Below are positions 3,809-12,621 of a stretch of 28,026 bases of DNA, piece after piece. Location of the stretch: positions 1 to 28,026 of the IMG/VR virus record IMGVR_UViG_3300022699_000064. One strand, written 5' to 3'. Source of the DNA: a virus. A model generated the notes under the pieces. That model ran no database searches. It was not told where the DNA came from and saw only the letters and a program-made list of their open reading frames with translations. Numbering within the stretch: position 1 is the stretch's first letter; every line of letters starts with the position of its first letter. The translations under genes were made by a program, and so were the position numbers.

Positions 3809-3987
3809 TCTTCGTCTGCCTCGTATGCCCGCTGCATGTAATGGTCTTTCACGAAGTCGAGCAGCCCGAGCACTGTCACTACCAAGGTATCGTGCGGCAT
3901 CTCCTCGTCAATCTTCTCGACAATCGCTTGAACCATTCGCTCGACCCTAGGATCGCCGTTGTACAGATTCTGCACTTTGTCACTCAT
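3805..3987 (-). CDS. hypothetical acidic protein (60 aa)
   Basis: ATG at 3987 gives 60 residues beginning MSDKVQNLYNGDPRVERM. The longer open frame to 4125 lies inside the upstream gene and was rejected. The protein is acidic, helical (VQAIVEKIDEEM) with a hydrophobic patch (LVVTVLGLLDFVKDH) too short and too interrupted to call a membrane span with confidence. No family recognised. Confidence 0.55.
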   Translation of the reverse strand: MSDKVQNLYNGDPRVERMVQAIVEKIDEEMPHDTLVVTVLGLLDFVKDHYMQRAYEADEE

Positions 3988-5222: not shown

Positions 5223-5447
5223 CTAGCTTGCAGTTTGCGAAAGGTTTTGGGATTGATCGGCCATCAGGTAATAACGCGCATACTGTTTGCCGTTTACTGT
5301 AGCCGGCTCGGTGGTTATCACATGGCCTTGCATCCGCAGGTCATGGATTCGGGCCGCGAGACGCAAGCATCCATACTGCACTGCGTCCAACGCGGTGATC
5401 GGGCCTCGCTTGAGCAAGGCAAGTATCTGCTCGTTTTGACTCATCAT
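5223..5447 (-). CDS. winged-helix/HTH protein (HTH_39-like, 74 aa)
   Basis: Two adjacent ATGs (5447 and 5444). GGAGG ends 4 and 7 bases before them, so 5444 may be the one used (73 aa). NEQILALLKRGPITALDAVQ and CLRLAARIHDLRMQGHVI form a typical HTH_39 domain (PF14090): a helix, a T-x-x-D/E-A turn, then an R-x-x-x-R-I-x-x-L-R-x-x-G wing. This is a small DNA-binding protein found in early regions of many proteobacterial phages. The GTAATGATG junction overlaps the YqaJ stop by one base, so it is coupled to recombination genes and may be a regulator of the arm. Confidence 0.78.
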   Translation of the reverse strand: MMSQNEQILALLKRGPITALDAVQYGCLRLAARIHDLRMQGHVITTEPATVNGKQYARYYLMADQSQNLSQTAS

Positions 5448-6292
5448 TATTCCTCCGTCACATCCACTTGGAAAAACTTGGAGCCGGGCTTCCGGTACTG
5501 CTCCAGATCGACTCCGGCCAGCTGATCCTTCTGGACTCGCTTCCAATCGACCGACCCAGCACGGCTAATTTCCTTGACCCGAACGCCGCATCCGTACGAA
5601 TACGATCCAGCGGCACACTGGATCAGCCGCTGTTTTGCCTCTGATAGCTCCTGTGCGGCTTTGTCAGCGGCTTTCTTTGCTTCCCGGTATGCTTCCGCCG
5701 CATCACGCCACTCCTCGTCGTCACGGGCCTGTACGGTCGGCCAGAATTGTTCCCAGGCTTCCTTGATCTGATCCCAGACCGTCGTGTCCGGCTCAATCGT
5801 GACTCCGACGTACGGCTCGTCGCTGTCCGGCTCGCCGCTCCACACCAGGAAAAAGCACTCGCGGGCGTCGGTCACCATCAGCTGGTGCTGCACCTGGATG
5901 TAGTCGTGATGGTCGATGCCACCGTTAGCGACGACGCGCCATCGATCGGATTCCCGGCCTTTGACCGGAGACTTGATCTCCAGAAGCTGCTCGCCGTCCA
6001 TGCTGATGCCGTCCACGCTTGCGCCGAAATCTTCCCATTCAAAACACGCCGGCTCGAACAACTCGCCAGTGGCATCTTCGTATGCGTAGCGGGCCTTTGG
6101 CTCCTCGTCGTGGCCTCGCTGCATGGCAGCCGTGGTGTATGTCTTGTCCGTGCCGCGCTTGGCCGCACGAATCTGCTCCGGCGACTGGTATGGGCTAATG
6201 CCCATTATTGCCGCCGTTTCGCTGGCCATGGCGCGCTTTCGGCGCCAGTCAAGCCACTCCTGCGTTCCCTGTTCAAGTTCAACACGACTCAT
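5447..6292 (-). CDS. YqaJ-type viral recombinase / 5'-3' exonuclease
   Basis: 281 residues. The N-terminal 200 show the PD-(D/E)XK exonuclease fold of lambda Exo/YqaJ: GTQEWLDWRRKR (9-20), RGHDEEPKARY (59-69), Asp94 (ASVDGI), Glu105-x-Lys107 (LLEIKSP) and the QVQHQL helix (133-138). The enzyme would resect one strand of double-stranded ends to expose 3' single strands. The C-terminal 80 residues are a charged helix (EEWRDAAEAYREAKKAAD) and a tail that may contact partners. It overlaps the ERF annealase by four bases (ATGA), so the pair is produced together as a two-component recombination system. Confidence 0.93.
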   Translation of the reverse strand: MSRVELEQGTQEWLDWRRKRAMASETAAIMGISPYQSPEQIRAAKRGTDKTYTTAAMQRGHDEEPKARYAYEDATGELFEPACFEWEDFGASVDGISMDGEQLLEIKSPVKGRESDRWRVVANGGIDHHDYIQVQHQLMVTDARECFFLVWSGEPDSDEPYVGVTIEPDTTVWDQIKEAWEQFWPTVQARDDEEWRDAAEAYREAKKAADKAAQELSEAKQRLIQCAAGSYSYGCGVRVKEISRAGSVDWKRVQKDQLAGVDLEQYRKPGSKFFQVDVTEE

Positions 6293-6861
6293 TTCGATTC
6301 CTCCCGCTTTTTCTCCAGAGTCTTGATGATTCCATGGTATTTGGCCGCCGGTATCTGCTCAGGCTTTTTCACGCCAAAGAATTGGCAGATTTCGCCAATA
6401 GGTTTGCCGACTTCCTCCGCCAGCGCTTTGATATTTGCGGCTTGCTCCGACGTCACTGGCTGGCTGGCCGCGTTGCCGTCATCGTCCTCCGGCGCGATGC
6501 CGCACGCCGACATCAGGGCGTATCGGCGAGCATACGTCAGAGCCGATCCGTATCCCTGCGCGTTGGCCCGCTCAGCCGCGACGTGCAGCTGCCCGCCTGA
6601 CAGGCTTTCGCCGGACTCGTGCAGGAAAACCGTCTCCACGATGACGCCGCCGTCGCAGTAATGGTTGCGCTGGATGAGAGCGATGCCATTGTCGTTGAGT
6701 GCATCAATCACCGCGTTGACGCATGACGCCAGGTCAGCGTAGCGGTTTTTGAAATGCGGGTTGACCGCGTCTTTGATCGCGGGAGAGAACGCCCGCTGCG
6801 CCTTGACGAACGCGGCGGCAATCTTAGGCCGGTTGGCCATCTCGTCGAATGGGTTGGTCAT
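6289..6861 (-). CDS. erf: ERF-family single-strand annealing protein
   Basis: 190 residues. Conserved ERF blocks are clear: NPHFKNRYADL (34-44), the DALNDNGIALIQ region (53-64), and NAQGYGSALTYARRYAL (100-116) followed by CGIAPEDDDGN. It anneals complementary single strands, as P22 Erf does for genome circularisation and recombination. The last 55 residues (SEQAANIKALAEEVG) form a separate helical domain seen in other family members. It is the first gene of the leftward arm, starting 24 bases left of the palindromic operator, with GGGGA upstream of the ATG. Confidence 0.94.
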   Translation of the reverse strand: MTNPFDEMANRPKIAAAFVKAQRAFSPAIKDAVNPHFKNRYADLASCVNAVIDALNDNGIALIQRNHYCDGGVIVETVFLHESGESLSGGQLHVAAERANAQGYGSALTYARRYALMSACGIAPEDDDGNAASQPVTSEQAANIKALAEEVGKPIGEICQFFGVKKPEQIPAAKYHGIIKTLEKKREESK

Positions 6862-6884
6862 GGTGAGTTCCCCTTTGCTTCCGT

Positions 6885-6898
6885 TGGACTCGAGTCCA
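6885..6898. promoter_or_regulatory. perfect 14-bp palindrome, candidate operator
   Basis: TGGACTCGAGTCCA is an exact palindrome. It starts in the last base of the leftward -10 box and covers the expected transcription start, where a bound dimer would block initiation. Only one copy was noticed in the window. The cognate repressor is unknown. Candidates inside the window are the small HTH proteins of the left arm; a repressor outside the window is equally possible. Confidence 0.65.
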
Positions 6899-6925
6899 GA
6901 ATAACAGCTTGGGGCTATATGTAAA
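6898..6925 (-). promoter_or_regulatory. main leftward early promoter
   Basis: Minus strand: TTTACA (-35, 6925-6920), 16-bp spacer, TATTCT (-10, 6903-6898). Start of transcription is expected near 6891, giving a leader of about 30 bases before erf. It is sigma70-like with 5/6 and 4/6 matches. It lies in the 107-bp divergent gap between the two arms, overlapped by the palindrome. Confidence 0.65.
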
Positions 6926-6933
6926 CCCCCTAT

Positions 6934-6962
6934 TTGCTGTTAATTGGTCAACGGGACAAAAT
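6934..6962 (+). promoter_or_regulatory. possible rightward early promoter
   Basis: TTGCTG (6934-6939), 17-bp spacer, CAAAAT (6957-6962). The match to sigma70 is modest. If used, the start of transcription would fall at about 6969, the A of the first rightward ATG, giving a leaderless message. That would agree with the lack of a clear Shine-Dalgarno before that gene. An upstream alternative, TTGGGG (6909) with TATTTG (6931) at 16 bp, is about as weak. Confidence 0.3.
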
Positions 6963-6968
6963 TGGCCC

Positions 6969-7151
6969 ATGCGCGAGTGGTGCCAGAGCATGTGGAACGG
7001 ATACGTTGTGAGCGGCAAAAGCCGTGAGCAGCGCCGTGCTCGTCTTGAGGAGGTGCCTGAGCAGTACAAGCAAGGCGTGATCAATCACGTTGAGACGGTG
7101 TTTGCCATCAAGCGGAATGCGAGGCGGAATGGTCGAACTAATCGTCGCTAA
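6969..7151 (+). CDS. small conserved phage protein (60 aa, DUF7696-like)
   Basis: ATG at 6969. The open frame extends left to a TTG at 6909, but that would run through the divergent promoter region, so it was rejected. MREWCQSMWNGYVVSGKSRE, then LEEVPEQYKQGVINHVETVF and a basic tail. The E-V-P-E-x(5)-V-x2-H-V-x-x-(V/I)-F core resembles a small family found just upstream of NinB/DUF1367-type genes in phages. The name is from memory and uncertain; function unknown. It overlaps the next gene by 23 bases. Confidence 0.6.
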   Translation: MREWCQSMWNGYVVSGKSREQRRARLEEVPEQYKQGVINHVETVFAIKRNARRNGRTNRR

Positions 7152-7578
7152 AGGCGCGCTAGTCCCCGCTGATGACCGAGCGCGCGACGAGTTGCGCAAG
7201 ATGAAGCTGGGCGTCGGCCAGTTGGTGACGGCGCAGATACGTCAGCCACGCAGCGTTCGGTTTTTCCGCTTAGCGCACAAGATCGGCGCGCTGGCGCGGC
7301 AGAACATCGAAGGCTTCGAGCACATGAGCGATCATGACGTGATCAAACGGTTGCAGTACGAAACGGGCGTTGAGTGCAAGATGATGCAAATGCGCGTTCC
7401 TGGGGCTGGGCTTGTCGATGTCCGCATTCCGCGCAGCTTGCGTTTTGACGAAATGGAGGAGGCGAGGTTCCACGACCTGATGACGGCAATCTGCCGGCAC
7501 CTGTCGGCTGAATACTGGCCAGAGTGCAGCCCCGACCAGATCGAGCGCATGGCCGAGGCAATGATAGATGACGCCTAA
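7129..7578 (+). CDS. DUF1367-like phage protein (149 aa)
   Basis: Start chosen at ATG 7129 (GAGGCGG upstream); the longer frame to 7090 lies within the preceding gene. The C-terminal half carries IPRSLRFDEMEEARFHDLMT and AICRHLSAEYWPECSP, close to the R-S-(I/L)-x-F-x-x-M-(D/E)-E-x-x-F-x-x-L pattern of DUF1367 proteins of lambdoid phages. The N-terminal half holds VRFFRLAHKIGALARQN. It has been grouped with nin-region genes by position in other phages. Here it leads Ref- and RusA-type recombination enzymes, so an accessory recombination or DNA-metabolism role is likely. Confidence 0.7.
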   Translation: MVELIVAKGALVPADDRARDELRKMKLGVGQLVTAQIRQPRSVRFFRLAHKIGALARQNIEGFEHMSDHDVIKRLQYETGVECKMMQMRVPGAGLVDVRIPRSLRFDEMEEARFHDLMTAICRHLSAEYWPECSPDQIERMAEAMIDDA

Positions 7579-7861
7579 ACAGCGCCAGCGCCGGTTCGCG
7601 GCTTTGACCGACATGGGTTGCATTGTTTGCCTCAACCAGGGGCGAGGCTGGGTTCCGCCTGAAATCCACCATCTCAAAGGTAGCCCATGGTCGGGGATGG
7701 GTAAAAAAGCCGACGACGCGAACACCATCCCGCTTTGCCCAGGCCATCATCGCTACGGCGGCGACGGTGAGATAGGCTTTCACCAATCGCCGGCCGAGTT
7801 CCGCGAGCGATACGGCTCGCAGGGCGATCTTTACGCGCAAGTGGAGGAGCGGCTTGATTAA
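7568..7861 (+). CDS. Ref-like RecA-dependent HNH nuclease
   Basis: 97 residues, overlapping the previous gene by 11 bases. Metal-binding and catalytic pattern of the Ref family (P1 Ref; RecA_dep_nuc): C18-x2-C21, H34-H35 (PEIHHLKG), GMGKKADD, then C57-x2-H60-H61 (PLCPGHHR) and H72 (GFHQSPAEF), ending RYGSQGDLYAQVEE. P1 Ref cleaves DNA strands within RecA-bound displacement loops. This protein is about half the length of P1 Ref and lacks its long basic N-terminus, as is common for phage versions. It sits just upstream of RusA, consistent with homologous recombination in replication. Confidence 0.85.
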   Translation: MTPKQRQRRFAALTDMGCIVCLNQGRGWVPPEIHHLKGSPWSGMGKKADDANTIPLCPGHHRYGGDGEIGFHQSPAEFRERYGSQGDLYAQVEERLD

Positions 7862-8252
7862 GTTCACCGTCCCGGTTCCGCCGGTAGCGAAAGCCCGTCC
7901 GCGCGTGACTGTACGAGGCGGATTCGCACGCGCGTACACGCCGAAAAAAACCGCGCAGTTCGAGCAGATCGTCGCGGACTGCTGCCCGATGCATCCGCCC
8001 ATCAATACCCCGTGCCATTTGTCGATCACTTTCCATTTGCCGATCCCGAAGTCGTGGAGCAAGGCCAAGCAAAAGGCTGCCCAGGACGGCGAACTGGCGC
8101 CGGTCACGCGCCCAGACATTGATAACTACATCAAGTCAGTCATGGACGCCCTCAACGGCGTTGCCTACGAGGACGACTCGCAGGTCGTCACACTGACTGC
8201 CGCAAAGCTTTACTCGGTCGACCCGCGCGTCGAGATTCAGATCGACGGGTAA
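7854..8252 (+). CDS. rusA: RusA-family Holliday junction resolvase
   Basis: 132 residues beginning with TTG at 7854. This start overlaps the Ref stop by eight bases and has GGAGGAG just upstream. No ATG occurs before residue 46. Conserved features: PVPPVAKARPRV near the N-terminus, RPDIDNYIKSVMDAL with Asp88 and Asp90, and YEDDSQV with Asp107/Asp108, corresponding to the acidic catalytic triad of E. coli RusA (D70, D72, D91). It would resolve four-way junctions formed in phage recombination before packaging. Confidence 0.93.
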   Translation: MIKFTVPVPPVAKARPRVTVRGGFARAYTPKKTAQFEQIVADCCPMHPPINTPCHLSITFHLPIPKSWSKAKQKAAQDGELAPVTRPDIDNYIKSVMDALNGVAYEDDSQVVTLTAAKLYSVDPRVEIQIDG

Positions 8253-8413: not shown

Positions 8414-9076
8414 ATGTTTTATTATCAGCACCATATCGGCGACTTCAAACGTGACACGGAGATGCTGACTGATCACCAGTCGATGGCTTATCTCCGTCTG
8501 CTTTGGATTTACTACGACACCGAGGAGCCGCTGCCGGACGATCCCGAGCGGCTGGCCTTCCTCGTCCGAAGCGACGAGAAAACGGTGTCACTCATCCTCG
8601 ATCATTTCTTTTACTACGACAGCGGGAAGTGGCGTCACACCCGATGCGACGAAGAAATCGAGCGCTTCCAGGATCGGAGTTCCAAGGCATCTAAGGCGGC
8701 CAAATCGCGCTGGGGTAATGCGGACGCTATGCGAACGCACTGCGAAAGCAATGCGAACGCATCCGTGGAACATGCGAACGCATCGATTTTGGATGCCAAC
8801 CAAGAACCAGTAACCAGTAACCAAGAACTAACAGATACTAAAGGTAGGGAGAGGGGCAAAACCGCAAAGCGGTTTGTGCCACCCACCGTCGATGAAGTTC
8901 GACAATACTGCCAAGAGCGCAGCAACACTGTGCAGCCCGAGAGGTTCGTAAACTTCTATGAAGCCAAGGGCTGGATGGTCGGCAAAAACAAGATGCGCGA
9001 CTGGAAAGCGGCAGTGAGAACGTGGGAGAGTAAGCAGCCCGCGGAGCCAACGCGGCGCAAGAGGAAGATGCTATGA
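8414..9076 (+). CDS. DUF1376 replication initiation protein
   Basis: ATG at 8414 was chosen because the conserved domain begins there (FYYQHHIGDFKRDTEML). The open frame to 8330 is leader. 220 residues. Residues 2-90 are DUF1376, a winged-helix-type domain (SMAYLRLLWIYYDTEEPLP). Residues 101-150 are a low-complexity Asn/Ala/Ser linker encoded by iteron-like repeats. Residues 153-205 are a C-terminal domain typical of phage replication proteins (FVPPTVDEVRQYC, KGWMVGKNKMRDWKAAVRTW) that probably loads the helicase. The C-terminus is strongly basic (RRKRKML). The stop overlaps the helicase start (ATGA), the same initiator-helicase arrangement as lambda O-P or P22 18-12. Confidence 0.9.
   Translation: MFYYQHHIGDFKRDTEMLTDHQSMAYLRLLWIYYDTEEPLPDDPERLAFLVRSDEKTVSLILDHFFYYDSGKWRHTRCDEEIERFQDRSSKASKAAKSRWGNADAMRTHCESNANASVEHANASILDANQEPVTSNQELTDTKGRERGKTAKRFVPPTVDEVRQYCQERSNTVQPERFVNFYEAKGWMVGKNKMRDWKAAVRTWESKQPAEPTRRKRKML
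8719..8782 (+). repeat. iteron-like repeats in the initiator gene, candidate origin
   Basis: TGCGAACGCA and close variants start at 8719 (TGCGGACGCT), 8730 (exact), 8741 (TGCGAAAGCA), 8752 (exact) and 8773 (exact). The spacing is 11, 11, 11 and 21 bp, close to one and two helical turns. Each unit is itself nearly palindromic (TGCG-AA-CGCA). The 11-bp period is not a multiple of three, so it is not explained by a repeated amino-acid motif. It lies in the linker part of the initiator gene, where lambdoid origins also lie. Confidence 0.7.
8800..8827 (+). repeat. four tandem 7-bp repeats beside the iterons
   Basis: CCAAGAA, CCAGTAA, CCAGTAA, CCAAGAA run head to tail, in an A-rich stretch that continues to about 8845. 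The period of 7 again does not match codons. Being comparatively AT-rich and directly downstream of the iterons, it could be the unwinding part of an origin or a second set of initiator sites. Confidence 0.6.
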
Positions 9077-10311
9077 CTGAGATTGAGCAAGCGCTGATCG
9101 TATCCGCCGTCCTGGACAATGACGCAGCGATGACGGTCAACATTGGGGCAGAGCATTTCAGCGATGATGCTGGCAGCGCTATTTGGCAGCAGATCGTTCG
9201 CAACCTCACAATGGGCAAGGCCGCCGATGGCGTTTCGCTGCAGGCCGACTTGGGCGATCCAAAGGCTTTGCAGGCTTTCGCTGGCGCGATGGCCGTCAGT
9301 GCGAGCCCCAGCAACATCCAGCATTACGCCAAACAGGTTCGGGAGGATTCGCGGCGTAGGAAAATCAAGGCTGCTGCGAGGGATGCCGTCGAGGATGACA
9401 GCCAGTCTCCGGATGAAATGGCGGCCTCGTTAATGACGACGTTGCTGGAGTCTGGCAACAGCGACCGCAAGTCGGATTACTCTGCTGGAGACTTGATGGC
9501 AAAGACCATCGAGCGAATAGACTCCGCCGCAACCGGCCAAGCGCTCGGGCAGCGCACGGGCTGGCGGTCGATTGATCATAAACTCGGCGGGTGGCATAAG
9601 GGCGATCTGACGATCATCGCTGGGAGGCCGGGCATGGGTAAGTCCGTGTTCGGCATGAACGCGGCCGAACAATCAGCCCGGCTGGGAGCGAATGTGGGTT
9701 TCATCAGCACCGAGATGGACGCCGTTAGCCTAGGAATGCGCCTGGCGGCCTCAAGCGCCGGACTGTCGATCAGCGACTTGCGTCGCGGTCAGCTAGACCA
9801 CGATGGATGGTCAAAGTTGGCGGCTGCGTCTAACCGGATCGCAAAGTTGCCGCTGCGAGTCCTGGAAGCATCCGGATGGTCGATGGGGCAAATCATCCGG
9901 CAGTGCCATGCCTGGCACCGGTACGGGCTTGATCTGGTCGTCATCGATTATTTGCAGCGCACACGCCCCGATCTGAAAAGCGACCGGCAAGACTTGATGG
10001 TCGGCAAAATGGCCCAGGACTGCAAAACGATGGCGACCCAGCTGGAGATACCCGTGCTGCTGCTGTCGCAGCTTTCCCGCGGCCTGGAATCTCGTCAGGA
10101 TAAACGGCCGCAGTTGAGCGACCTGCGCGAAAGCGGCCAGATTGAGCAGGAGGCGGACAATGTGATCATGCTTTACCGCGATGCGGTGTATAATGATACG
10201 GCCGCTGACGAAGATGGCGAGATACTGGTCGAAAAGCAGAGGCAAGGCCCGATAGGCGCAATCGAAATGCGTTGGGATGGCGCCCATGCCAAGTGGTCTG
10301 ATGTAGACTAG
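9073..10311 (+). CDS. DnaB-type replicative helicase
   Basis: 412 residues. N-terminal DnaB domain about 1-95 (EQALIVSAVLDN). RecA-like helicase domain from about 160: TGWRSIDHKLGGWHKGDLTI, Walker A GRPGMGKS (184-191), Glu214 (ISTEMD), Walker B VVIDYLQ (289-295), and the sequence SQLSRGLESRQDKRPQLSDL (332-351) followed by RESGQIEQEAD with the arginine-finger region. It unwinds DNA 5' to 3' at phage forks as a hexamer. It overlaps the initiator gene by four bases. It is slightly shorter than bacterial DnaB, as usual for phage versions, and ends in an acidic tail (WSDVD). Confidence 0.95.
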   Translation: MTEIEQALIVSAVLDNDAAMTVNIGAEHFSDDAGSAIWQQIVRNLTMGKAADGVSLQADLGDPKALQAFAGAMAVSASPSNIQHYAKQVREDSRRRKIKAAARDAVEDDSQSPDEMAASLMTTLLESGNSDRKSDYSAGDLMAKTIERIDSAATGQALGQRTGWRSIDHKLGGWHKGDLTIIAGRPGMGKSVFGMNAAEQSARLGANVGFISTEMDAVSLGMRLAASSAGLSISDLRRGQLDHDGWSKLAAASNRIAKLPLRVLEASGWSMGQIIRQCHAWHRYGLDLVVIDYLQRTRPDLKSDRQDLMVGKMAQDCKTMATQLEIPVLLLSQLSRGLESRQDKRPQLSDLRESGQIEQEADNVIMLYRDAVYNDTAADEDGEILVEKQRQGPIGAIEMRWDGAHAKWSDVD

Positions 10312-11009: not shown

Positions 11010-11411
11010 ATGCCCAGAGGGCGACCGAGATCAATCGACTCACCAGAGCAGTTCGACGCGCTAGTCGACGAATATGTAGCGCAGTGCGAAGAAAAAGACG
11101 TTCCTGTCACTTTGACTGGAATGATCTTGCACCTAGGCTTGAGCAGCAGGCAAAGCCTAGATCGATACCAGCAGTATGATGGTTTTAGTGACTGCGTAAA
11201 AAGAGCCAAGCTATACGTTGAGTTGGCCTATGAAATGAGACTCAATGGCGACAAGCCTACCGGCGCAATCTTTGCGCTCAAGAACTTGGGTTGGCGCGAC
11301 CGTGTGGAGCAAGACCACACAAGCAGCGACGGCAGTCTTTCGGGTGTAAGCCGGGTCGAAATCGAGGTCATTGATGGAACTGCAGATCAAGGCGACCCGA
11401 CCGCAGTCTGA
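11010..11411 (+). CDS. terminase small subunit
   Basis: Start placed at ATG 11010 with GAGGTGA seven bases upstream; a GTG at 11001 lies inside that ribosome site. 133 residues. MPRGRPRSIDSPEQF starts a helix-turn-helix recognition part (LTGMILHLGLSSRQSLDRYQ), then DCVKRAKLYVELAYE and AIFALKNLGWRDRVEQD, the pattern of small terminases that bind pac/cos DNA. It would recognise the packaging site and recruit the large subunit, whose start overlaps this gene's last 38 bases. The pac or cos site itself was not identified. Confidence 0.88.
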   Translation: MPRGRPRSIDSPEQFDALVDEYVAQCEEKDVPVTLTGMILHLGLSSRQSLDRYQQYDGFSDCVKRAKLYVELAYEMRLNGDKPTGAIFALKNLGWRDRVEQDHTSSDGSLSGVSRVEIEVIDGTADQGDPTAV

Positions 11412-12621
11412 CTTCCTAACAATGGGCAAGAGGTATCGCTTGTTCCTGTCGGGATATGGCGGCGGCAAGTCAGAGACAATGGTCGCTGCTGCCATGATTG
11501 ATGCCTGCCGGGCGCCATCATCGCTGGTGGCGCTGTACTGCCCAACCTACGACCTTGTCCGGCTAATCACTGCGCCTAGGCTCCAGGCTAGACTGACGGA
11601 TCATGGCGTGGCCCATGTCTACAACAAGGCGGACAATGTCATCTACACTTCGTCGCCGTCCTGGGGCGACTTCCTCATGCGCACGCTGGACAACCCTGAG
11701 CGCATCGTTGGCTACGAATCCATGACTGCGCATGTCGATGAGCTCGACACGCTCCGGGCCGAGCACGCCAAGGAAGCGTGGAACCGCGTTATCGCGCGTA
11801 ACCGCCAGCAGATCAAAGGCTATGACGTTTTCAATCAGGCGTCCGCTTACACGACGCCAGAAGGGTTCAAGTTCGTGTATTGGCGCTGGGTCACGGCGGC
11901 GACCAGCGAGTACGGAATGGTTCAGGCTCCTTCGTACAGCAATCCGTTCCTGCCCGAGGGCTACCTCAAAAGCCTCCGTGAATCCTACCCGGCTGCATTG
12001 GCTGATGCGTACATTGAGGGGCAGTTCGTCAACCTGACGACCGGGACGATATTTAGCAGCTTTGACCGGGAGCGGTGCGGATCGGATGCGACTGCCCAAG
12101 ATGGCGAGTTGCTTTTGGTCGGGGCGGACTTCAACGTCGGCCAGATGGCGGGTGTTGTTTACGTCAGGCGCGATGGTGATATGCACGCTGTCGACGAGGT
12201 GGTCGACGCATATGACACGCCCGACATGATCCGGGTTTTGCAGTCAAGGTATCCTGGGCATAAAATCGCAGTATATCCAGACGCCAGCGGCGGGAGTCGC
12301 AAAACAGTGAATGCGTCACAAAGCGATCTTGCCCTGCTAGAACAGGCCGGGTTTTCCGTGCGGGCGCCGAGGAAAAACCCGCCTGTCAGGGATCGCATTA
12401 TCGCGGCTAACCGGGCGTTTGCGTCGGGCGCCGTCAAAGTCAATGCGAAGCGATGCCCCGAGTTTGTCAGATGCTTGGAGCAGCACGCATACGATAAAAA
12501 CGGCGAGCCTGACAAATCGTCTGGGCATGATCATCTGACCGACGCGGGGACTTATCCCGTCGCGTACGAGATGCCTGTCAAAAAACCAACGGCGAATGTA
12601 GACTTCCAGTTCGCCCTATAG
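11374..12621 (+). CDS. terL: terminase large subunit
   Basis: 415 residues from ATG 11374. N-terminal ATPase: Walker A GYGGGKS (27-33), Walker B with Asp122-Glu123 (AHVDELDTL). C-terminal RNase H-like nuclease with acidic residues Asp252 (VGADFNVGQ), Asp303 (YPDASGGS) and Asp390 (DHLTDAGTYPV). It pumps DNA into proheads and cuts concatemers. Length is somewhat short for the family but all parts are present. It precedes the portal by eight bases, the usual motor-docking order. Confidence 0.95.
   Translation: MELQIKATRPQSDFLTMGKRYRLFLSGYGGGKSETMVAAAMIDACRAPSSLVALYCPTYDLVRLITAPRLQARLTDHGVAHVYNKADNVIYTSSPSWGDFLMRTLDNPERIVGYESMTAHVDELDTLRAEHAKEAWNRVIARNRQQIKGYDVFNQASAYTTPEGFKFVYWRWVTAATSEYGMVQAPSYSNPFLPEGYLKSLRESYPAALADAYIEGQFVNLTTGTIFSSFDRERCGSDATAQDGELLLVGADFNVGQMAGVVYVRRDGDMHAVDEVVDAYDTPDMIRVLQSRYPGHKIAVYPDASGGSRKTVNASQSDLALLEQAGFSVRAPRKNPPVRDRIIAANRAFASGAVKVNAKRCPEFVRCLEQHAYDKNGEPDKSSGHDHLTDAGTYPVAYEMPVKKPTANVDFQFAL

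Follow-up and report, generated by a model that had tools for sequence, protein, structure and literature searches.

Why does a viral gene for a DUF1376 protein carry an array of short repeats in the part encoding its linker, and do these repeats serve the DNA or the protein? The stretch of DNA analysed here, referred to as the window, is the 28,026-base IMG/VR virus record IMGVR_UViG_3300022699_000064, positions 1 to 28,026. A first-pass annotation, made from its letters, had read the array as a probable replication origin inside the gene of the initiator. From comparative sequence analysis, we estimate a probability of about 0.82 that the DUF1376 protein is a phage replication initiator with its origin in its own gene, binding the iterons through the helix that ends its domain.

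The gene (8414-9076, plus strand; 220 aa) is a candidate replication initiator gene by its PF07120 and PHROG matches. Its product matches PF07120/DUF1376 with an E value of 1e-20 and 74.3 bits against a curated cut-off of 30.1, and primosomal protein families are among its PHROG matches. DUF1376 is its sole Pfam family at E 0.001, with no match to a lambda O replication protein family. The DUF1376 domain (residues 3-83, 8420-8662, plus strand) has a winged-helix-like core with pLDDT >90 over most of it. It ends in a long helix (residues 76-101, 8639-8716, plus strand), a putative recognition helix according to the AlphaFold2 model and the half-site covariation described below. The linker that follows is rich in Asn, Ala, and Ser, and its residues 109-142 and 144-150 have pLDDT < 50 in the AlphaFold2 model. 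The C-terminal domain (approximately residues 153-207, 8870-9034, plus strand) is proposed to contact the helicase, on the basis of its helices (159-169, 175-184, and 197-207, predicted in the same model) and its conservation in proteins with different N-terminal parts. No Pfam family matched this domain, PF17948 (DnaT-like) included; the differing C-terminus of a close relative, L007, scored E 0.016 against PF17948, below the cut-off. Compared with winged helices, the DUF1376 core gave a best Z of 5.7 over 57 residues, a generic score at which many winged helices tied, and its best structural neighbours are mostly transcription regulators. Foldseek with the DUF1376 model returned nothing at E <= 0.001 (best E 0.09), and a profile search of solved structures reached a best E of only 0.4. 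Directly after the DUF1376 gene comes a DnaB-like replicative helicase gene (9073-10311, plus strand; PF03796, E 3.9e-75). A recombination module at 5447-8252 adjoins the proposed origin; by Pfam and PHROG it comprises YqaJ exonuclease and ERF annealing protein genes on the minus strand, and NinB-like, RecA-dependent nuclease-like, and RusA resolvase genes on the plus strand.

Five TGCGAACGCA-type units were found by word match on the plus strand of the linker-coding part, as first annotated: iteron 1 (TGCGGACGCT, 2 mismatches) at 8719-8728, iteron 2 (TGCGAACGCA, exact) at 8730-8739, iteron 3 (TGCGAAAGCA, 1 mismatch) at 8741-8750, and iterons 4 and 5 (both exact) at 8752-8761 and 8773-8782. 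Their spacings are 11, 11, 11, and 21 bp, and all three reading frames are used. Beyond four units of the array, TGCGAACGCA within one mismatch occurs nowhere else in the 28 kb on either strand. TRF detected the 11-bp array independently, with a score of 62. A lag-11 score as high as that of the gene arose in 0/1000 codon permutations and, when the protein was kept and synonymous codons were shuffled, in 1/1000. The plain word count is less striking, because the observed 4 words within one mismatch equal the maximum of the protein-kept null (mean 0.92, maximum 4). GC skew changes near 8700, which is compatible with the inflection anticipated there, but the change is weak and confounded by transcription.

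Directly downstream are the 7-bp repeats AACCAAG, AACCAGT, AACCAGT, AACCAAG, and AACTAAC (8798-8832, plus strand), recognised by eye and by TRF and proposed to be an unwinding element. TRF reports 2.7 copies of a heptad with 100% match at 8805-8823, the lag-7 score of the gene was reached in 0/1000 cases in both the codon-permutation and the synonymous nulls, and GC falls to 0.42 at 8789-8838. These results bear out the earlier description of tandem 7-bp repeats in relatively A-rich DNA.

Of 398 genomes sampled from one phylum, 28 had DUF1376 above the cut-off, and the domain was found in 102 phage-collection records at E 1e-5. DUF1376 genes were gathered through protein or HMM similarity, and redundancy was removed at 75% domain identity; the set comprised 88 genes including that of the window, with two left out (one masked, one short). 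Periodicity was scored in 195 nt around and after the domain end, with codon permutation as the null. Lags of 11 (z 24), 22 (15), 33 (10), and 44 (4) were in excess, as were the short lags 5, 6, and 7 (z 5, 12, and 6), with smaller excesses at 4, 12, 15, and 21 (z 4-5). Lag 11 retained z 16.3 with the protein held fixed, and the 68 genes without the TGCGAACGCA word gave z 13.6 under the same fixed-protein null and 19.1 under permutation. A control region 330-525 nt downstream gave a lag-11 z of 1.9 (54 genes), and the DUF1376 domain itself one of 8.2, which is not fully explained. An individually significant 11-bp array (p <= 0.01) was present in 55 of the 88 genes and absent from 33, a fraction that is not a prevalence because three of the four viral-contig protein queries were picked after repeats had been seen in those genes. 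Genes from a random draw of genomes had such an array in 10/21 cases and none in 11/21, two of the ten arrays overlapping the domain end. The 98-gene set used for array counts and tail covariation includes a further ten genes, taken from genomes to which the DNA pattern had led; 62 of the 98 were significant (62 and 61 in two random runs).

The arrays form 28 consensus clusters; in 9 of these, the representative is palindromic in at least 4 of its 5 pairs. Palindromic iterons with different arms include TGCGAACGCA, TGGGAACCCA, and CGTTCCAACG, and within clusters also AACGAACGTT and TGCAAATGCA. The mean palindrome score was 3.11 against 2.77 for shuffled consensus sequences, with 0/2000 as high. 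Related genes therefore contain repeats of the same period with different sequence, the near-palindromic character first seen in the window recurs among them, and the original argument that protein constraint does not explain the period holds in the window gene and across the family. A second element is also common. A 5-8-bp tandem repeat follows within 75 nt of the array in 54 of 61 array genes (p <= 0.05), with a period of 6 in 31 and 7 in 15, and its unit varies between genes (AACCAG, ACCAAC, AACCAAT, AAAGG). In these 61 genes the coding strand is A-rich and T-poor, with A 0.47 and T 0.13 at 20-50 nt past the array, and in 56 of them the first 60 nt past it have a lower stability than the remaining gene (Wilcoxon p 9e-11).

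The 18 nearest loci (L002-L019, 36-98% identical) have arrays of the same word followed by similar short repeats, and encode different peptides. A scan on DNA alone for two TGCGAACGCA iterons at 11-bp spacing found at least 120 stretches in viral contigs. Among the matches listed, 115 of 120 pairs lie inside DUF1376 ORFs by an HMM built from 20 proteins and 116 of 120 by a wider HMM; the five exceptions to the first HMM are a gene cut by the contig end (L162), a diverged DUF1376-like protein (L098), and the loci L183, L130, and L131 described below. The pairs inside DUF1376 ORFs, taking the viral and genome loci listed together, lie on the coding strand in frames 0, 1, and 2 in 90, 24, and 37 cases (n=151). 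In 81 non-redundant genes among the matches listed, the commonest spacing of the word is 11 (127), then 22 (14) and 21 (8), and 276 words point one way versus 20 the other. The same 10-bp word recurs in DUF1376 genes of contigs titled Bacteroidota, Bacillota, and Pseudomonadota. In genome contigs, 12-16 of 50 pair matches fall in DUF1376 ORFs, depending on the HMM, and chance may explain many of those outside (38/50 or 34/50). One locus has a split gene (L183, 3129-3967), in which a DUF1376-like ORF stops at TGATG at the array start and a second ORF begins inside the array. Two viral contigs with similar neighbouring genes, L130 (array at 3874, reverse strand) and L131 (2521), have an iteron array with no DUF1376 gene nearby, possibly a borrowed satellite origin or a relic. 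The array and repeats of L133, used as a query, partially matched 48 phage records, including Acinetobacter phiAC-1 (71% of the query), Chlorobiaceae CV-1-33, Vibrio 1.183.O, Thalassomonas BA3, Shewanella X14, Methylophilaceae P19250A, and Psychrobacter Psymv2; the figure of 48 counts query matches. The repeat-region query matched 2 of 5426 E. coli genomes over 23-26% of its length, both on plasmids.

Which part of the protein goes with the iteron sequence? A strict coupling to the whole N-terminal domain was rejected and replaced by coupling to its last helix: iteron similarity correlated weakly with the whole N domain (partial rho 0.20, 8/1000) and more weakly with the C-terminal part (partial 0.127, 10/1000). 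Among the 61 array genes, the partial rho was 0.454 (0/1000) for the tail when the core was controlled for, and 0.005 (497/1000) for the core when the tail was controlled for. The iteron covaries with the domain-ending helix and not with the DUF1376 core. In sliding windows along the protein, covariation peaks in the last 16 domain residues (0.33-0.42); it is 0.09 just past the domain, in a gap that is variable and poorly alignable, and 0.18 near the array-coding stretch. Tail and array adjoin on the DNA, with a median distance of 10.7 codons, so co-inheritance may explain part of the covariation, but the dip between them speaks against plain linkage, because plain linkage predicts none.

An RW-type tail is present in 20 of 21 TGCGAACGCA genes versus 5 of the remaining 40 array genes (Fisher p 1.6e-10); of these five, four have other TGC..GCA iterons. 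In the window, residues A92, A95-A96, R99, and W100 match the pattern A..SA..RW with A replacing S. Counted without the period analysis, TGCN4GCA is found 70 times in the 40 RW-tail genes, where 5.2 are expected, and is present in 31 of them; AACN4GTT is found 36 times in the 14 GKASA-tail genes, where 1.1 are expected, and is present in all 14. A prediction on tail classes was written before viral contigs were scanned for AACGNNCGTT and AGCGNNCGCT pairs; only these AACG and AGCG scans were blind, the DNA upstream of TGCGAACGCA loci having been seen before the tail analysis. The AACGNNCGTT scan gave at least 120 stretches. Of 120 listed, 100 lie in DUF1376 ORFs (58 non-redundant), and the other 20, such as L439, L455, and L457, fall outside ORFs detected by the DUF1376 HMM and may in some cases belong to other initiators or unannotated frames. 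Among the matches listed, RW tails, predicted to be absent, occurred in 0/100 AACG-type genes (0/58 non-redundant), and GKASA or SVxxR tails, as predicted, in 73/100 (39/58). The AGCGNNCGCT scan placed 23 of 51 loci in DUF1376 ORFs; the RW tail was avoided as predicted (1/23), but the named SVxxR or GG[KR] tails appeared in only 5/23, so that half of the prediction failed.

A wider motif, GxxSAxxR, fits 57/58 AACG-type versus 0/81 TGCG-type genes, and SAxxRW fits 74/81 TGCG-type versus 0/58 AACG-type genes, among the matches listed, with Y in place of W in four of the seven SAxxRW exceptions; both GxxSAxxR and the extension of W to W/Y are post hoc, set after the tested sets had been seen. In held-out genes less than 50% identical to any discovery gene, GxxSAxxR was found in 22/22 AACG genes among the matches listed, and the aromatic tail in 23/24 viral (among the matches listed) and 8/8 genomic TGCG genes; these counts omit discovery-like genes, and the motif refinements were still made on the tested sets. 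SAxxRW tails thus accompany TGCG..CGCA iterons, and GxxSAxxR tails AACG..CGTT iterons. Both tail classes have A at +1, R at +4, and S (sometimes A) at position 0, just as CG is present in both half-sites. What sets the classes apart is position -3, where A or G stands, and position +5, which is or is not W/Y, just as the half-sites differ in an outer TG or AA. The tree of the domain core, built without the tail (FastTree, 85 columns), has at least 25 changes of iteron class. Nine independent pairs lie on supported branches; the tail class changed the same way in 7 of them, the opposite way in 0, and not at all in 2 (sign test p 0.016).

The replication-gene context extends beyond the window. 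ORFs following DUF1376 genes were scanned in 82 of 157 cases, each taken as the longest ORF starting near the end of the DUF1376 gene. Next to the non-redundant DUF1376 genes (n=82) were 15 P-like loaders, 12 DnaC-like loaders, and 8 DnaB-like helicases, the largest group (16) being of unknown function; the families may overlap, and Pfam agrees in kind with the loader and helicase assignments. From 80 loci found by protein similarity, we also picked 29, not de-duplicated, that match only the C-terminal domain of the window protein. None contains a full DUF1376 domain by HMM. Their linker repeats are of other sequence (AATAGACGAAC in L037 and CCGNAGTCGGTT in L046, for example, among L020-L081), with an 11-bp repeat in 14/29 (p <= 0.01). 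The combination of other N-terminal parts with other linker repeats suggests that further initiator families may share this layout.

These features are consistent with the following sequence of events, in which dimer binding, opening, helicase loading, and a replication start at the array are all inferred. DUF1376 dimers would bind the palindromic iterons, spaced 11 bp apart, with the basic helix at the domain end, the likely recognition residues in the window being A92, A95-A96, R99, and W100. The array of bound dimers would strain the next 40-60 bp, the less stable A/C-rich short repeats, which would then open. The C-terminal domain, carried on the disordered linker, would help to bring the helicase, here the phage's own DnaB, to the opened strand.

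An origin is not the only role that such an array could have. Repressors commonly have palindromic sites and a winged-helix-like domain, and the structural neighbours of the core are mostly transcription regulators, so the array might be an operator through which DUF1376 regulates its own operon while replication starts elsewhere. However, it is situated some 300 bp into the gene, most genes have short repeats and less stable DNA after it, and a helicase loader or helicase is often the next gene; we consider an operator improbable. Tandem arrays are also known in packaging and segregation sites, and the arrays of L130 and L131, with no DUF1376 gene, would suit another kind of DNA site that happens to be placed in the initiator gene. 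Such a site is very improbable given that the array covaries with the initiator helix and is adjoined by replication genes rather than by the terminase gene, which Pfam places at 11371-12621 in the window. The repeats could instead be neutral products of slippage or recombination in an unconstrained linker, perhaps aiding domain shuffling. N-terminal parts and C-terminal domains are in fact variously combined at the linker, as in L007 and L009, which have the N-terminal part and array in common and differ in their C-termini. But one word shared across contigs of three phyla, its mostly fixed orientation, the constant order of the elements, and the covariation of the word with the helix rule out simple neutral repeats, and we give this account very little weight.

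A repeated peptide selected in the protein would fit the Asn/Ala/Ser-rich composition of the linker, which is as originally described, and the part of the word count that is reproduced when the protein is kept. A protein-level cause is nevertheless ruled out by the synonymous nulls in the window gene and the 88 genes; in addition, the same word is used in three frames, the linker is predicted to be disordered, and the domain gene of L183 ends before the array, leaving the peptide account a negligible chance. A different objection accepts the origin and questions its reader: tail and iteron might match through co-inheritance, being only a few codons apart, while another part of the protein reads the iteron. 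Against this, covariation drops between tail and array, albeit in the poorly alignable gap, domains less than 50% identical to the discovery genes show the same pairing of tail motif and half-site, and the independent pairs stand at 7 to 0. We regard co-inheritance as unlikely, though deserving of serious attention, and favour an origin whose iterons are bound via the tail helix.

A search of the open-licence PMC literature, with YdaU and GCGAACGCA also queried, listed no title that treats DUF1376 as an initiator or deals with its origin. Nor did it turn up a description of this initiator family, of the palindromic iteron classes, of the tandem-repeat element, or of the correspondence with the tail helix. 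Origin recognition offers a testable function for a Pfam domain of unknown function, and the arrays a simple route to locating the origins of phages with DUF1376 genes. If the correspondence between helix and half-site is causal, initiator specificity would become predictable, opening the questions of how origins diverge, by what means co-infecting phages avoid cross-initiation, and whether satellites carry origins that they have borrowed. A bolder proposal is that DUF1376 is a large origin-binding family with a bZIP-like helix, in which S0, A+1, and R+4 would read CG and positions -3 and +5 would set the outer TG or AA. Helix and origin would form one cassette swapped among helicase-loading C-termini, and the origin specificity of uncultured phages would be predictable from about 10 residues. 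We hold this proposal at even odds because the refined motif is post hoc.

The bZIP comparison concerns spacing alone: the conserved tail positions -3, 0, +1, +4, and +5 are presumably spaced as in the bZIP basic region, which also has palindromic targets, and we take the DUF1376 half-sites to be 2 bp further apart than CRE-type bZIP sites. Unlike in bZIP proteins, the DUF1376 helix ends a different domain. In the Francisella phage KIRK, repeats within a phage replication gene have been proposed, untested, as the origin; by the table of that source, the gene carries Phg_2220_C, not DUF1376 (PMC7924643). In Bartonella, a phage-derived run-off replication peak is described as mapping close to or within a helicase gene (PMC2697382, PMC3610622), gene 4 upstream of the helicase is proposed there to be lambda-O-like (PMC3610622), and a review states that transfer is abolished when the origin or some of the genes there are disrupted (PMC6899734). 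In the Bartonella genome that we examined, the sole Toprim/DnaB_C helicase copy directly follows a DUF1376 gene, a likeness to the run-off replication module by gene context, from which we infer that this gene is the lambda-O-like gene 4. The periodicity test found no significant 11-bp array in this gene beside the proposed mapped origin, which counts against the universality of 11-bp iterons. In one Bartonella genome, there are paralogues that are nearly identical in the domain and differ in their repeats, and others that share repeats and differ in the domain; by eye, the repeats keep TGC..GCA words and the tails RW. Bartonella genome G009 has 13 DUF1376 matches (L260-L270), many in tandem pairs of a short domain-only gene and then a full gene.

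The closest precedent is lambda, from which iterons and unstable DNA in an initiator gene are already known. For lambda and Stx phages, iterons and an AT-rich tract are described in the middle of the O gene, whose product binds the iterons, and the P gene follows in the replication region (PMC7466680). The DUF1376 locus resembles lambda ori in having iterons inside the initiator gene, a less stable element adjoining them, and a loader or helicase gene next, and the lambda-like layout first proposed for the window proved to be common in this unrelated family. The DUF1376 genes differ from lambda, whose iterons are longer, in that their units measure 10 bp, are spaced 11 bp apart, and fall into several sequence classes, and in that a short tandem repeat forms the second element.
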